A DNA stretch of 64,000 nucleotides. It comes from Catellatospora methionotrophica. GTDB lineage: Bacteria > Actinomycetota > Actinomycetes > Mycobacteriales > Micromonosporaceae. The notes under the pieces are model-generated. The model was given only the letters and a program-made list of their open reading frames with translations. It was not told the DNA's origin and made no database searches. Shown in pieces: positions 36,046 to 41,073 of this stretch (positions within the stretch are counted from its first letter, which is position 1; each line of letters begins with the position of its first letter). Position numbers and translations under genes: made by a program. The DNA lies in the NCBI RefSeq assembly GCF_011297335.1, contig NZ_JAAOTJ010000007.1:124001-188000 (forward strand), read 5' to 3'.

Positions 36046-36070
36046 CAACCCGAGCGAGCCTCCCCGCGTA
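36046..36070 (+). promoter_or_regulatory. ECF-type promoter before sigma-fusion gene 1
   Basis: CAACC (36046-36050), a 16-nt spacer and CGTA (36067-36070) form an ECF-sigma promoter, 20 nt before the ATG. The same -35/-10 words with exactly the same 16-nt spacing occur before the other two copies. Confidence 0.65.
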
Positions 36071-36090
36071 TTGAGGAACGGAGGTGGCGG

Positions 36091-37665
36091 ATGAACAGGT
36101 ACGACGGCTTCCACGAGTTCGTGGTCGCGCGAGGCGGGGCGCTGTCGCGTACGGCGTTCCTGCTGACCGGGGAGCACCACGCGGCCGAGGACCTGGTGCA
36201 GTCGGCACTGGCCAAGGCGGCCGCCCGGTGGCGGCAGATCGTGGAGTACGGGCAACCCGAGGCATACGTGCGGCGCACCATGATCAACGAGCAGATCTCG
36301 TGGTGGCGGCGACGCCCGGCCCGGCCGATGGCCGAGCTGCCCGACCGGCCCGGCCCCGACGAGCCGCACCGCATCGTGGACCGGCTCGCCCTCGGCGAGG
36401 CGCTGGACACGCTCTCGCCCCGGCAGCGGGCCGTGCTGGTGCTGCGCTACTACGAGGACCTGTCCGAGGCCGACACCGCCGCCGTCATGGGCTGCTCCGT
36501 CGGCACCGTGAAAAGCCACACCCACCATGCGCTCAACCGGCTGCGCCAAACCCTTCCGCTGTACGCCGAGCAGGCCGGCCAGTACGCGGACGGCCCCGCG
36601 GCCCTGGTCGCCGCGCGGCGACGGCGGGCCCGCCGGGCGGCCGTGGCGGCACTGGCGATCCTGCCCCTGCTGCTCACCGCCATCTGGTTCGGCGTGCGCA
36701 CTCCCGCCGACGTGCCGCCGCCGGTCACGGTGCCGCCCTCGGTGGGCCCGCTGCCGCCGCTGCTCCCGCGTCCGGAGCGCCCGACCAGTGTCGGCAATCT
36801 GCCCGCGGACCGCGGCATCGGCGGCGCGTCGCTGCTGCTGGAGGGGTCCAGTCCGGGTCTGGTGCAGCTGGTCGGCGGCGACGGCGGTCTCTATCACCAC
36901 TTCGTGCCCGCCGACCAGCTCCTCAACGCCCCGACCCTGTCGCCGGACGGCCGGTGGCTCACCTGGACGACCGCGCGGGCGACGATGGTGCGCGACCTGA
37001 TCACGACCACCCTGCGCGAACTGCCGCCCTCGTCCGGCGCACCGTTCTGGTCGCCGTCGGGCGGCTGGTTTCTCATTCCGGCTACTCCGACCAGGGGAGA
37101 TCTGCTCTACCGGATGCCGGACTGGACGGCCCATCCCCTCGCCCAGGCCGCGCCGGAACGGATGACCTGGGCCGTGCTGGACAGCGGTGAGTTGCTGCGC
37201 TCCTCCCTGGCGGTGAGCGCAAGCGCCGCCGAGCTGGTGCTGGTAGACCCGTTCACCGAGACGGACCGCAAGATCATGGTGGAGGTGGCCGGGCTGCTCG
37301 GCGAGGGTGAGTCCATCAAAGACCCCGGCACCGGCGACGGTCCGGCAGTGCGGATCGACATCCTGATGGGGGCGGGAGTGGCCGCGCTCAGGGTCATACC
37401 CCGGGAGCCGGTCACCACGGCGTCGGCCGACGTGTCGATGATCGAGTTCTCGACTGTGGACGGGCATGTGCTGCGCCGCCTGGACCTGGTACACGACCTG
37501 GTCGCCTGGACGCTCTGCTACCGGGGTCAGGATCTGTTGTGGAGTGATGGAAGGAAGCTGCGGATCAGGCGCGCGGGCGCGGTCACCGACGGTGTGGTGA
37601 TGCCGCTGGATCGGTCCGATGCCATCAAACCGTCCGGATGCCGCAGCACCGCGAGCCAGGTTTAG
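36091..37665 (+). CDS. SigE-family ECF sigma factor fused to membrane helix and outer domain (copy 1)
   Basis: A 524-residue fusion. Residues 1-165 are a SigE-family ECF sigma factor: region 2 (TAFLLTGEHHAAEDLVQSAL, EAYVRRTMINEQISWWRRR) and region 4 (LSPRQRAVLVLRYYEDL, AAVMGCSVGTVKSHTHHAL). A single membrane helix follows at about 183-202, then a Pro/Val-rich linker and a domain of about 290 residues with SPDGRWLTWTT and LDSGELL motifs like TolB/WD40 blades. Orientation predicts sigma inside and the propeller outside. No anti-sigma gene is linked, so the fused outer domain probably controls sigma release, perhaps by proteolysis; this is inference. ATG follows GGAGGTGGCGG. It is the first of three tandem copies. 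Confidence 0.88.
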   Translation: MNRYDGFHEFVVARGGALSRTAFLLTGEHHAAEDLVQSALAKAAARWRQIVEYGQPEAYVRRTMINEQISWWRRRPARPMAELPDRPGPDEPHRIVDRLALGEALDTLSPRQRAVLVLRYYEDLSEADTAAVMGCSVGTVKSHTHHALNRLRQTLPLYAEQAGQYADGPAALVAARRRRARRAAVAALAILPLLLTAIWFGVRTPADVPPPVTVPPSVGPLPPLLPRPERPTSVGNLPADRGIGGASLLLEGSSPGLVQLVGGDGGLYHHFVPADQLLNAPTLSPDGRWLTWTTARATMVRDLITTTLRELPPSSGAPFWSPSGGWFLIPATPTRGDLLYRMPDWTAHPLAQAAPERMTWAVLDSGELLRSSLAVSASAAELVLVDPFTETDRKIMVEVAGLLGEGESIKDPGTGDGPAVRIDILMGAGVAALRVIPREPVTTASADVSMIEFSTVDGHVLRRLDLVHDLVAWTLCYRGQDLLWSDGRKLRIRRAGAVTDGVVMPLDRSDAIKPSGCRSTASQV

Positions 37666-37688
37666 CGGCTGCCATCGCCTCCGGCCCT

Positions 37689-37727
37689 GACGCGGCGATG
37701 ATGACATTGTCGAAGGTCCGCCGCGTC
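37689..37727 (+). terminator. Hairpin after sigma-fusion gene 1
   Basis: GACGCGGCG (37689-37697) pairs with CGCCGCGTC (37719-37727) with a 21-nt loop, between gene 1 and the promoter of gene 2. Confidence 0.5.
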
Positions 37728-37743
37728 GCTGGAAGACGACCTC

Positions 37744-37768
37744 CAACCCCGGAGGGCTCCGTCGCGTC
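37744..37768 (+). promoter_or_regulatory. ECF-type promoter before sigma-fusion gene 2
   Basis: CAACC (37744-37748), a 16-nt spacer and CGTC (37765-37768), 19 nt before the ATG. Confidence 0.65.
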
Positions 37769-37787
37769 ATGGGGGCGGAGGTGGCGG

Positions 37788-39350
37788 ATGGACAGGTATG
37801 ACGGGTTCCACGAGTTCGTGGTGGCGCGGGGCGGGGCGCTGTCGCGTACGGCGTTCCTGCTGACGGGCGAGCACTACGCGGCCGAGGATCTGGTGCAGTC
37901 GGCGCTGGCCAAGGCGGCGATGCGGTGGCGCTGGCTGGTGGAGCACACGCAGCCGGAGGCCTACATTCGGCGCATCATGATCAACGAGCAGATCTCGTGG
38001 TGGCGCAGAAGACCGGCCCGGCCCGTGGCACAGGTGCCCGAGCGGCCCGGCCCCGACGAGTCCGGCCAAGTGGTGGATCGGATCGCGCTCGGGCACGCGC
38101 TGAACACGCTCACCCCGCGCCAGCGCGCCGTGGTGGTGCTGCGCTTCTACGAGGACCTGTCCGAGGCGGACACCGCCGCGCTGATGGGCTGCTCGGTCGG
38201 CACCGTCAAGAGCCAGACCCACCTGGCGCTGGGCCACCTGCGGCGCGCGCTGCCGCGCTACGCGGAGCAGGCGGGGGAGTACGCCGACGGCACTGCCGCC
38301 CTGGCCCTGGCGCGACGCCGCCGGACCGGCCGCACGGTCGTCGCCGCCCTGGTGGCCGGGCCCCTGCTGGCCGGGCTGCTCTGGTTCACGGTGCGCGGCG
38401 TCGACACGGTCCCGCCGCCCGTGGCCACCACGCCTTCCGCCATCCCGGTGCCGGTCAGGCCGGTCCCGGCACTGCCGTCCCGGCTCGACGTGAACGCCGT
38501 GGTCGAGGAGCTGCCCGGGGATCGGGCGCCCGGACCGGCGGTGCTGCAGGTGCACGACGACAGGGTGTTCCCCGGTCCGCGGACGGTGCTGGTCATGGCC
38601 GACGGGCACTACTACTCGGGCTTCACGGGCCCGTCCACGCTGTCGCCGGACGGCCGCCGGGTCACCTGGTCGACGGCCACGGCGACCATGGTCCGCGACC
38701 TCACCGGCACCGACGTGCGCGAGTTGCCCGCTACGCTTGGCAGCCCGCTCTGGTCGCCCGGCGGTGACTGGTTCCTGCTGCCCGCCCGCGCGGGGACCGG
38801 CGAGACGCTCTACCACCTGCCCGACTGGACGGCCCGTGAGCTTCCGCCGGTGCTGCCCGCGCAGGCGACCGCGGTCGTGCTGGACAGCGGTGAGCTGCTG
38901 CGCCCGGCGGGCAGCCCGACCAGGACCACCGTGCCGCTGGAGGTGGTCGACCCGGTCTCGGGGACCGTGCGGCCGGTCACCGTCGACGTCGCCGACCGCA
39001 TCGCACCGGGCGAGTCGGTGCGGAGCTGGTCGATCCTCGCCGCCCCCGGCGACTCCGCCGGGCTGGCCGTCTTCGGCGCGGGCCAGAAAGGGTCCACCGA
39101 GGTGATCGATGTGATCCAGTTCTCCACGGCCGACGGCCGGGTGCTGCGGCGGATCTCGCTGCCGGCGGACCGGCTGGCGTTCCCGCTCTGCTTCCGGGGA
39201 GCCGACCTGCTGTGGACGGACCTCGCGACCATTCGCCGGGCACCCGCTCCGCAGGGCATCGGGCTGCTGATGGAGCTCGACACTCCGTGGCACGTCGTGC
39301 AGCCGGCGGGCTGTACGCGCTCCACCGGCCTGGGCTCCTTCCCGGGTTGA
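37788..39350 (+). CDS. SigE-family ECF sigma factor fused to membrane helix and outer domain (copy 2)
   Basis: A 520-residue paralogue of copy 1. The sigma part aligns without gaps through residue 180 (EAYIRRIMINEQISWWRRR; LTPRQRAVVVLRFYEDL). One membrane helix spans about 184-202 and a Pro-rich linker joins the outer domain, where STLSPDGRRVTWSTATATMVRDLTGTDVRELP and LDSGELLRPAG match the copy 1 blades. The outer domain diverges more than the sigma part, as expected if the copies respond to different signals. ATG at 37788 has the same GGAGGTGGCGG leader as copy 1; the frame stays open upstream but the leader fixes the start. It has its own ECF promoter, so it can be expressed alone. Confidence 0.88.
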   Translation: MDRYDGFHEFVVARGGALSRTAFLLTGEHYAAEDLVQSALAKAAMRWRWLVEHTQPEAYIRRIMINEQISWWRRRPARPVAQVPERPGPDESGQVVDRIALGHALNTLTPRQRAVVVLRFYEDLSEADTAALMGCSVGTVKSQTHLALGHLRRALPRYAEQAGEYADGTAALALARRRRTGRTVVAALVAGPLLAGLLWFTVRGVDTVPPPVATTPSAIPVPVRPVPALPSRLDVNAVVEELPGDRAPGPAVLQVHDDRVFPGPRTVLVMADGHYYSGFTGPSTLSPDGRRVTWSTATATMVRDLTGTDVRELPATLGSPLWSPGGDWFLLPARAGTGETLYHLPDWTARELPPVLPAQATAVVLDSGELLRPAGSPTRTTVPLEVVDPVSGTVRPVTVDVADRIAPGESVRSWSILAAPGDSAGLAVFGAGQKGSTEVIDVIQFSTADGRVLRRISLPADRLAFPLCFRGADLLWTDLATIRRAPAPQGIGLLMELDTPWHVVQPAGCTRSTGLGSFPG

Positions 39351-39363
39351 CGGCAGAACGGGT

Positions 39364-39389
39364 CGCCCGCCACGCCGTCGCGGCGGGCG
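39364..39389 (+). terminator. Hairpin after sigma-fusion gene 2
   Basis: CGCCCGCC (39364-39371) pairs with GGCGGGCG (39382-39389), 13 nt after the stop of gene 2. Confidence 0.6.
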
Positions 39390-39415
39390 GCCCGGCGCGT
39401 GTTGCCGGATGATCC

Positions 39416-39440
39416 CAACTTCCGGGCACTCTGCCGCGTA
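39416..39440 (+). promoter_or_regulatory. ECF-type promoter before sigma-fusion gene 3
   Basis: CAACT (39416-39420), a 16-nt spacer and CGTA (39437-39440), 19 nt before the ATG. Confidence 0.6.
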
Positions 39441-39459
39441 GGGGGAGTGGAGGTGGCGG

Positions 39460-41073
39460 ATGAGCCGATACGACGGCTTCCACGAGTTCGTGGTCGCGCG
39501 GGGCGGGGCGCTGTCGCGCACGGCGTTCCTGCTGACGGGTGAGCATTACGCGGCCGAGGACCTGGTGCAGTCGGCGCTGGCCAAGGCGGCGGTCCGGTGG
39601 CGGCAGATCAGGGAGTACGGCCAGCCGGAGGCGTACGTCCGGCGCATCATGGTCAACGAGCAGATCTCCTGGTGGCGGCGTCGCCCGGCGCGGCCGACGG
39701 CCGACCTGCCGGACCTGCCCGGCCCGGACGAGCCGCACCGGGTGGTGGAGCGGGTCGCCCTCACCCGGGCGCTGGCCACCCTCGCCCCGCGCCAGCGGGC
39801 CGTGCTGGTGCTCCGCTTCTACGAGGACCTGTCCGAGGCGGACACCGCCGCCGCCATGGGCTGCTCGGTGGGCACGGTGAAAAGCCAGACCAACCTCGCC
39901 CTGACCAACCTGCGGCGCTCGCTGCCGCTGGTCGCCGAGCATGCCGGGCAGTACGCCGACGCGCAGGCCGCCCTAGCGACAGCGCACCGCCGCCGGACCC
40001 GGCTGGCCGGTGCCGCGGTGGCCCTCGCCGCGCTGCCGCTGCTGGGCCTGATCTGGTATGCGCTGGCCGGAGCCGCCGCGGCCCCGGCCCCGGTGACCAA
40101 TTCGCCGAGCCCGTCCGCGAGGGCCCTGCCGCCGTCACCGATGACGCCGCCCGCGCTGCCCGCTCACGTGCCCGCCGGTGACGTCCTGCCGGACCTGCCC
40201 GCGGACCACGGCGTCCGGGGCGGCACGCTGCTGCTGGCGAAGAAGGCCGGGGACGGCCGCGACTACGAACTCGTGGCCGGAGACGGCCGCCGTCACCGCC
40301 TGCCGTCCGCGCCGACCGGCGGTTTCACGGTCGATCCGGTCCTGTCGCCGGACGGCCGCTGGCTGCTCTGGTCGTCGCCCCAGGGGACCGAGGTACGCGA
40401 GCTGACCACGGCGACCGTGCACCTGCTGCCTTATCCGGTCAGCGAGGCCCGCTGGTCGCCGTCGGCCGTCTGGCTGTATGTGCGGCACTACACCGACGGC
40501 GGCGAGACGCTGGTCAGGGTTGGCGACTGGGCGGTGCGCGAGCTCGACGTCGCCGATCCGGTCCAGCCCGTCGCGGCACTGCTGGACAGTGGCGAGCTGC
40601 TGCGGCTCGGCAGTCCGATCACCGATACCGCCGTCACGCTCGACCGGATCGATCCGCTGACCGGAGCCGCGCGGCGGATCACCGTGGACCTGCGCGGGAT
40701 GCTCCGAGCCGGCGAGAGCGCCGTCGCCGTCACCGTGACCGACCTGGACAGCGGCAAGCGCGACCGGATCGCCCTCGTCCTGCCCGTCGCCGACGGCACC
40801 GCGGGCGTGGAGATAGTGCGATCGGGTCCGGGCAGCACCGACACGGTGAGCGCCGTGGTCAGGTTCAGCCTCGTCGACGGCCGGGCGATGCAACGGATCG
40901 ACCTGTCTCGGGATGGCTTTTCGATGCCGTTGTGCTTCCACGGCCCGCAACTGCTGTGGACCGACGGCAGGGCCGTCATCGGTTCCGGGGGCGACTACCG
41001 CCTGCCGCTCGATCCGGGGTACGGCGTCAAGCCGCCCGGCTGCCTCCGGGTCGCCGAACAGCGGCAGGACTGA
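39460..41073 (+). CDS. SigE-family ECF sigma factor fused to membrane helix and outer domain (copy 3)
   Basis: A 537-residue third paralogue. Sigma regions 2 and 4 are conserved (TAFLLTGEHYAAEDLVQSAL, APRQRAVLVLRFYEDL, GCSVGTVKSQTNLAL). A membrane helix at about 182-200 (LAALPLLGLIWYALA) is followed by an Ala/Pro-rich linker and the outer domain (TVDPVLSPDGRWLLWSS; ARWSPSAVWLYV; LLDSGELLRLGS). The leader GGAGGTGGCGG and ECF promoter match the other copies. Unlike copies 1 and 2, no hairpin precedes the next gene. The three genes arose by tandem duplication; their sequence drift lies mainly in the outer domain. Confidence 0.88.
   Translation: MSRYDGFHEFVVARGGALSRTAFLLTGEHYAAEDLVQSALAKAAVRWRQIREYGQPEAYVRRIMVNEQISWWRRRPARPTADLPDLPGPDEPHRVVERVALTRALATLAPRQRAVLVLRFYEDLSEADTAAAMGCSVGTVKSQTNLALTNLRRSLPLVAEHAGQYADAQAALATAHRRRTRLAGAAVALAALPLLGLIWYALAGAAAAPAPVTNSPSPSARALPPSPMTPPALPAHVPAGDVLPDLPADHGVRGGTLLLAKKAGDGRDYELVAGDGRRHRLPSAPTGGFTVDPVLSPDGRWLLWSSPQGTEVRELTTATVHLLPYPVSEARWSPSAVWLYVRHYTDGGETLVRVGDWAVRELDVADPVQPVAALLDSGELLRLGSPITDTAVTLDRIDPLTGAARRITVDLRGMLRAGESAVAVTVTDLDSGKRDRIALVLPVADGTAGVEIVRSGPGSTDTVSAVVRFSLVDGRAMQRIDLSRDGFSMPLCFHGPQLLWTDGRAVIGSGGDYRLPLDPGYGVKPPGCLRVAEQRQD

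Follow-up and report, generated by a model that had tools for sequence, protein, structure and literature searches.

Genus-wide fusions of a SigE-family ECF sigma factor to a candidate membrane partner in Catellatospora

Background

The window analysed here, a stretch of 64,000 nucleotides from Catellatospora methionotrophica (assembly GCF_011297335.1, contig NZ_JAAOTJ010000007.1, positions 124,001 to 188,000 of the forward strand), contains three adjacent genes, A, B and C, in each of which an extracytoplasmic function (ECF) sigma factor of the SigE family continues into one predicted membrane helix and a propeller-like outer domain. How could a sigma factor that is built into a membrane protein be silenced and activated, and from what was its membrane part derived? 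The explanation we favour, with a probability of about 0.65, is that the sigma factor and the single-pass membrane partner belonging to it, a candidate anti-sigma factor or sensor, have merged into a single protein, from which the sigma factor would be released by proteolysis on a signal from outside. By sequence comparison, other Micromonosporaceae have a homologue of the C-terminal half as a gene of its own, overlapping a SigE-family sigma gene; inhibition of the sigma factor by this partner and its release by cleavage are what we infer.

Results

Domain architecture of the three genes

All three genes lie on the plus strand. In each product a SigE-family ECF sigma factor is followed by 27 juxtamembrane residues, a single predicted transmembrane helix and an outer domain of about 290 residues:

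36046..36070, plus strand: predicted ECF promoter of gene A, CAAC-N17-CGTA; the motif stands at the equivalent place in 28/28 fusion copies examined
36080..36087, plus strand: ribosome-binding site GGAGGTGG of gene A, from the sequence
36091..37665, plus strand: gene A, fusion of sigma, juxtamembrane, transmembrane and propeller-like parts, 524 amino acids
36091..36558, plus strand: SigE-family ECF sigma domain of gene A, residues 1-156 (TIGR02983, 182 bits; Sigma70_r2 and r4_2)
36559..36639, plus strand: juxtamembrane cytosolic segment of gene A, residues 157-183, with similarity to the N-terminus of the separate partners
36640..36696, plus strand: predicted transmembrane helix of gene A, residues 184-202 (hydropathy 2.35, arginine block before it)
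36754..37662, plus strand: outer domain of gene A, predicted TolB-like beta-propeller (structure models and profile)
37744..37768, plus strand: predicted ECF promoter of gene B, CAAC-N17-CGTC
37777..37784, plus strand: ribosome-binding site GGAGGTGG of gene B, from the sequence
37788..39350, plus strand: gene B, architecture as gene A, 520 amino acids (sigma 37788-38255, transmembrane helix about 38337-38393, outer domain from about 38460)
39416..39440, plus strand: predicted ECF promoter of gene C, CAAC-N17-CGTA
39449..39456, plus strand: ribosome-binding site GGAGGTGG of gene C, from the sequence
39460..41073, plus strand: gene C, architecture as gene A, 537 amino acids (sigma 39460-39927, transmembrane helix about 40012-40068, outer domain from about 40147)

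The start of gene B was placed at 37788 by homology, ribosome-binding site and promoter; the mechanical open reading frame begins at 37638. A first-pass annotation had proposed three tandem in-frame fusions of a sigma factor, a membrane helix and a propeller-like domain, and this is borne out by the open reading frames, the domain profiles and hydropathy. Its claim that each gene holds a full SigE-family ECF sigma factor also stands: the model TIGR02983 ('SigE-fam_strep') matches residues 5-156 of A, B and C with 182, 171 and 177.6 bits, above the curated cut-off of 141.55, and sigma regions 2 and 4 are recognised by Pfam within the fusion proteins.

The three proteins are 81-84% identical pairwise in the sigma part and 35-43% in the outer domain. 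The same gradient is seen across 26 fusions of the genus, with mean identities of 81.5% for the sigma domain, 63.6% for the juxtamembrane segment, 42.3% for the transmembrane helix and 37.3% for the outer domain. The outer domains, previously called divergent, are so in degree, but they are homologous to each other.

Membrane helix and topology were assigned from hydropathy alone. Each protein has one prominent hydrophobic 19-mer (Kyte-Doolittle 2.35, 2.20 and 2.10 at residues 184, 184 and 185 of A, B and C), with an arginine block just before it and a proline-rich linker after it. Lack of a membrane helix after residue 180 had been named beforehand as a possible refutation of the fusion reading; such a helix is predicted by hydropathy in all three proteins.

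The outer domain is predicted to belong to the beta-propeller class and to be TolB-like. PD40 repeats of Pfam exceed the cut-off of 20.9 bits in A (23.1), fall below it in C (17.7) and are not found in B, and they are also above the cut-off in two of the separate partner proteins described below (L103 and L005). The outer part of gene A is modelled as all-beta, with a predicted local distance difference test (pLDDT) score mostly of 70-90 for this block in the full-length model, which is poor over the sigma and membrane parts. Modelled alone, the domain has a mean pLDDT of 73.2 and a predicted template modelling score (pTM) of 0.75. Its best matches in the PDB are beta-propellers (TolB, NirN, methylamine dehydrogenase and WD40 domains; E about 1e-7 to 1e-6), and the outer-domain sequence profile compared with TolB gives E 9e-4. 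Because template modelling scores (TM-scores) of the domain alone against PDB propellers are modest (at most 0.47, with root-mean-square deviations of about 8-12 A), we go no further than the propeller class and give no number of blades. Cysteines 476 and 517 of the outer domain (numbering of gene A) are kept in 25/26 and 26/26 fusions, and would suit a disulphide outside the membrane.

Distribution in Catellatospora

The fusion was searched in its own genome and 60 relatives, comprising 11 Catellatospora genomes and 50 others, at a threshold of E<=1e-60. Every Catellatospora genome (11/11) gave matches, at least 1 to 6 per genome, none with internal stops, and 10 of the 11 contain a full-length fusion frame; the eleventh, G005, has only pieces at contig ends and one interrupted copy. 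None of the 50 genomes outside Catellatospora matched the fusion at this threshold. Copy numbers here and in the profile search with the C-terminal half are lower bounds, since scoring covered up to 24 and up to 10 candidates per genome, respectively. Because the matches are free of stops in all 11 genomes and full-length in 10, chance, sequencing error and wrongly merged frames are excluded as sources of the fusion. Related copies without the sigma part, or copies split by error, had also been set out beforehand as a refutation; the relatives within the genus keep the sigma part and are unsplit.

Loci were obtained for 30 of the 34 fusion matches. One that lacks the gene start (L039) and a contig-end fragment (L045) were excluded, leaving 28 copies for the promoter count, of which 26 are full-length and two, L030 and L038, are interrupted.

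The interrupted genes show a common pattern. In both G005 (L030/L091) and G007 (L038/L100) a fusion-sigma gene is broken, and in both the break falls on one and the same codon, after GCSIGTV in the helix-turn-helix of sigma4. The 5' part is followed by a recombinase gene, recognised by Resolvase and Recombinase domains in L038 and by eye in L030; a 3' part is found on the same contig at a distance of about 39-42 kb. A mobile element seems to use the fusion-sigma gene as its target for integration.

Separate partner genes and the origin of the fusion

A profile of the C-terminal half matched 31 of 200 genomes of the family, namely the 11 of Catellatospora and 20 of the 189 others. From the 20 matched genomes outside the genus we fetched 19 loci, one per genome (G132 was left out). 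In none of these 19 do sigma factor and outer domain share one open frame. Instead, 10 of them have a whole SigE-type sigma gene directly upstream of a single-pass membrane gene, and in nine of the 10 the two genes overlap when mechanical starts are used (by 4 nt and by 29 nt in four loci each and by 50 nt in one); the tenth, L111, has no overlap. A further locus, L110, has a sigma fragment upstream of the outer-domain gene, and the other eight (L107, L112-L116, L120 and L121) are possibly orphan or rewired partners. All 19 loci are found again at E<=2.3e-18 by a profile built from the outer domains of the 26 fusions, compared with 6.2 on the same scale for the best reversed sequence. A three-row profile missed L111, L117 and L118 at E 0.1 in a local scan; the 26-row profile found all three. 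The one-component switches of the first-pass annotation are real as fusions, but their outer half has known kin, a separate single-pass gene that overlaps a SigE-family sigma gene.

A similar arrangement is common within C. methionotrophica itself. Its genome has 35 other sigma matches, 17 of which were examined (L004-L020), and 15 of the 17 precede a gene with a transmembrane helix near residue 40, overlapping it by 4 nt in 11 cases, by 8 or 14 nt in three and not at all in one. These partners are membrane proteins with a short arginine-rich cytosolic N-terminus. Only that of L005 has an outer domain resembling the fused one (E 5e-6) among the 14 compared. The two remaining sigma genes, L011 and L012, are further sigma-transmembrane fusions whose sigma factors fall outside the clade of the trio, and apparently arose as independent fusions.

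In the sigma tree, from which L019 and L020 were excluded, as they were from the sigma profile, the 26 fused sigma factors form one clade (support 99/99). The split sigma factors of L117 and L118 adjoin it (91/81), and all of these lie within a supported group of 39 (98/95). Since the fused sigma factors form one clade and split homologous sigma/partner pairs are found elsewhere, the most likely origin is a single fusion event in an overlapping sigma/partner pair, followed by multiplication in Catellatospora.

The joint between the two halves also seems to be inherited from the partner. The N-termini of separate partners (e.g. LGEVAEQAKVYDVTGRAVRVARRRR) and the fused segment (e.g. LPLYAEQAGQYADGPAALVAARRRR) align in register, the pattern being AEQAxxYADxxAAxxxARRRR in the fusions and AEQAKVYDVTGRAxxxARRRR in the partners. 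In the 17 columns that precede the arginine block, the mean score of 26 fusions against six partners is 18.2, versus -10.6 (standard deviation 7.1) for column shuffles, none of 1500 of which scored as high; this significance is optimistic, the anchor motif having been picked after the pattern was seen. Shifting the alignment by up to 8 positions either way gives at most 5.4. The cytosolic N-terminus of the separate partners comprises about 35-45 residues, and the fusion appears to retain the second part of it, without the partner's first residues and the sigma tail.

No anti-sigma family was found in the three fusions in Pfam or among the best 25 NCBIfam matches, nor in five flanking proteins tested (a carboxylesterase, an FAD oxidoreductase, a 2OG-Fe(II) oxygenase, an RF-1 domain protein and a solute-binding protein). 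The earlier statement that no anti-sigma gene is present accordingly holds for these five neighbours, but because the outer half is homologous to a separate gene overlapping SigE-family sigma genes, the candidate for the 'missing' anti-sigma factor is probably the C-terminal half itself.

A shared promoter

Each of the 28 fusion copies examined is preceded by the motif CAAC-N17-CGT, whose end lies 19-23 nt ahead of the start codon and whose spacers vary; the consensus is approximately CCAACC-N14-YGCGT. Within the window CAAC-N17-CGTM has 10 matches against 4.2 expected, and three of the 10 are the promoters of A, B and C. A stricter form gave 38 matches in the 11 genomes of the genus, compared with eight for the reversed pattern; by coordinates, 27 of the 38 stand immediately before fusion genes, which leaves 11, close to the number in the control. 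One of these 11, L125, is identical or near-identical in four genomes and lies inside long open frames, one of them likely coding. The split neighbours of the fused clade, L117 and L118, carry the fusion promoter as well.

In the C. methionotrophica genome YCAACY-N14-YGCGT has 36 matches against 15 in the reversed control, and a pattern one base longer (N15) has 10 against six and misses A, B and C. A script scanned 30 of the 36 (L058-L087); the other six include three before the window genes and one before the split sigma gene L006. For 20 of the 30 no frame with a stretch like a ribosome-binding site starts within 150 nt downstream; 10 have such a frame, and five of these frames reach at least 250 codons (L064, L070, L072, L073 and L085). 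A wide regulon under the fusion promoter is not supported by these counts. The conserved motif is an indirect hint that the fused sigma factors may direct RNA polymerase to CAAC-N17-CGT promoters, and its presence before the fusion copies predicts autoregulation and perhaps cross-activation.

At one further locus of the genus (G004:C15:21130-24475) two fusion genes face away from each other, under divergent copies of the fusion promoter.

Discussion

Proposed silencing and release of the fused sigma factor

If the partner half is an anti-sigma factor or sensor, the cytosolic segment of 20-25 residues together with the membrane tether would keep the sigma factor from RNA polymerase. The outer domain would sense a signal and lead to proteolysis near the membrane, and the freed sigma factor could then switch on its own gene, probably the paralogues and possibly other genes.

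Several results weigh against this scenario. The inhibition of the sigma factor and the cleavage are themselves inferred, and the support for the membrane topology is hydropathy. The cytosolic segment is far shorter than a class I anti-sigma domain, Pfam and NCBIfam assign no anti-sigma family to the three partners tested (L004 and L005 among them), and HxxxCxxC, a form of the zinc-finger anti-sigma motif, occurs in none of the 26 fusions (residues 141-230). The pLDDT of the model is below 50 for residues 163-220 of gene A, too low to show a contact between segment and sigma factor. As to the partner origin, no sigma gene lies directly upstream in 8/19 outer-domain loci, one of these, L113, instead being closely followed by a different ECF-like sigma gene, and the sister position of L117 and L118 is moderately supported. 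The concentration of strict promoter hits at fusion genes is expected, because the strict pattern was built from these genes, and the same promoter before the split sigma gene L006 indicates that it is not exclusive to fusions.

The main rival to proteolytic release is activity while tethered: the sigma factor would stay attached, and an outside signal would change its conformation and recruit RNA polymerase at the membrane without cleavage, a logic like that of ToxR and CadC. The intact and highly conserved sigma domain (81.5% mean identity in 26 fusions), the short link of about 27 residues to the membrane and the position of 27 of the 38 strict promoter matches before the fusion genes themselves would all fit such an activator. 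However, the outer half has separate sigma-linked homologues, as expected of a sigma/anti-sigma pair, and the sigma-membrane fusion IutY, in the passages of PMC8999054 that treat it, acts via proteolysis; we regard a permanently tethered activator as unlikely. A related possibility is that the C-terminal half is an ordinary membrane sensor which inhibits by holding the sigma factor off the nucleoid, so that the juxtamembrane segment is a mere linker and there is no anti-sigma module. The small cytosolic part of just 20-25 residues and the lack of Pfam or NCBIfam anti-sigma families in three fusions (for NCBIfam, among the best 25 matches) and three partners are in line with this, but the segment is more conserved than the transmembrane helix or the outer domain, its pattern is common to the separate partners, and these could tether a sigma factor only by binding it. 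Inhibition by tethering therefore seems quite improbable to us. It is harder still to believe that the fusions are decaying or unused paralogues without a regulatory role: copy number does vary between genomes (at least 1 to 6 matches) and copies in two genomes are broken by an integrated element, yet the promoter is kept in 28/28 copies, 26 of them with a full-length frame, and sigma identity stands at 81.5%.

Relation to known ECF sigma factors

ECF sigma factors with fused membrane regulators are already in print, and the Catellatospora fusions are for this reason not categorically new. The closest parallel is IutY (ECF243) of Pseudomonas putida, an ECF sigma factor with a C-terminally fused membrane anti-sigma factor for which the passages on it report that proteolysis has been shown (PMC8999054). 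Both systems unite sigma factor, membrane anchor and extracytoplasmic part in one protein, and as the fused half of IutY corresponds to a membrane anti-sigma factor, that of Catellatospora corresponds to a separate sigma-partner gene elsewhere (10/19 loci). Unlike IutY, which according to the same passages acts in iron-starvation cell-surface signalling in response to aerobactin, the Catellatospora proteins belong to the SigE family, have a propeller-like outer part and are known from sequence alone.

Release of the sigma factor from a membrane regulator by proteolysis is also expected for ECF48, ECF52 and ECF53 in the relevant sections of PMC8999054 and PMC5826349, which propose proteolytic activation and positive autoregulation for the ECF52 member SCO4117 of Streptomyces coelicolor. 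The general idea, that an ECF sigma factor is covalently attached to a membrane regulator and set free by cleavage, has already been published. These groups, as outlined there, resemble the Catellatospora family in being actinobacterial ECF sigma factors with a C-terminal extension, a transmembrane helix and a proline-rich stretch, and ECF52 also has an outer module. They are, however, described with a zinc-finger domain, and with HxxxCxxC in 0/26 fusions we rejected membership in ECF52, ECF53 or ECF48 by this feature; moreover the outer module of ECF52 is given as carbohydrate-binding and that of Catellatospora is propeller-like. ECF57, of which a Singulisphaera member is tabulated, shares the joining of a sigma factor to propeller-type repeats, here WD40-like repeats at the C-terminus with regulation by protein interaction suggested (PMC8999054). 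Its description in that source mentions no transmembrane helix, in contrast to the actinobacterial Catellatospora family with one predicted helix.

The split pairs of other Micromonosporaceae (e.g. L103-L106, L108, L109 and L117-L119) have a related sigma factor, a transmembrane helix and a homologous outer domain, and share the juxtamembrane motif in the six partners tested; they differ in being two genes rather than one, and the fused joint is shorter than the sigma tail plus the partner N-terminus. By description, the short cytosolic N-terminus of the separate partners (about 35-45 residues) may be likened to class II anti-sigma factors of the CnrY type, summarised in the part of PMC7406223 concerned as short and cytosolic, binding sigma4 and sigma2 through two helices; the segment in the fusions is even shorter. 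A literature search, with most subscription papers outside its scope, found no published description of this sigma/transmembrane/propeller fusion.

What sets the Catellatospora fusions apart is a SigE-family sigma factor, a very short zinc-free cytosolic segment and a propeller-like outer domain, with separate homologues that reveal the partner origin and a genus-wide expansion under a strict shared promoter. A bolder proposal, which we put forward as a tentative possibility, is that the juxtamembrane segment of about 20-25 residues before the transmembrane helix (AEQAxxYxDxxxRAxxxARRRR and variants) is a minimal module that silences SigE-family sigma factors and is shuffled among different outer sensors. 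In Catellatospora it would have been fused to the sigma factor once and duplicated into genus-specific, self-activating transmembrane switches that respond to different outside cues through one promoter code, with possible cross-activation.

The split pairs of other genera and the fusions of this one, with conserved promoters, form a natural before-and-after series, and offer one gene family in which to ask how a short cytosolic segment and an anchor might silence an ECF sigma factor and whether cutting is needed. More broadly, SigE-family sigma factors that seemingly have no anti-sigma factor may have an overlapping single-pass partner which family models leave unnamed, as in the three partners tested.

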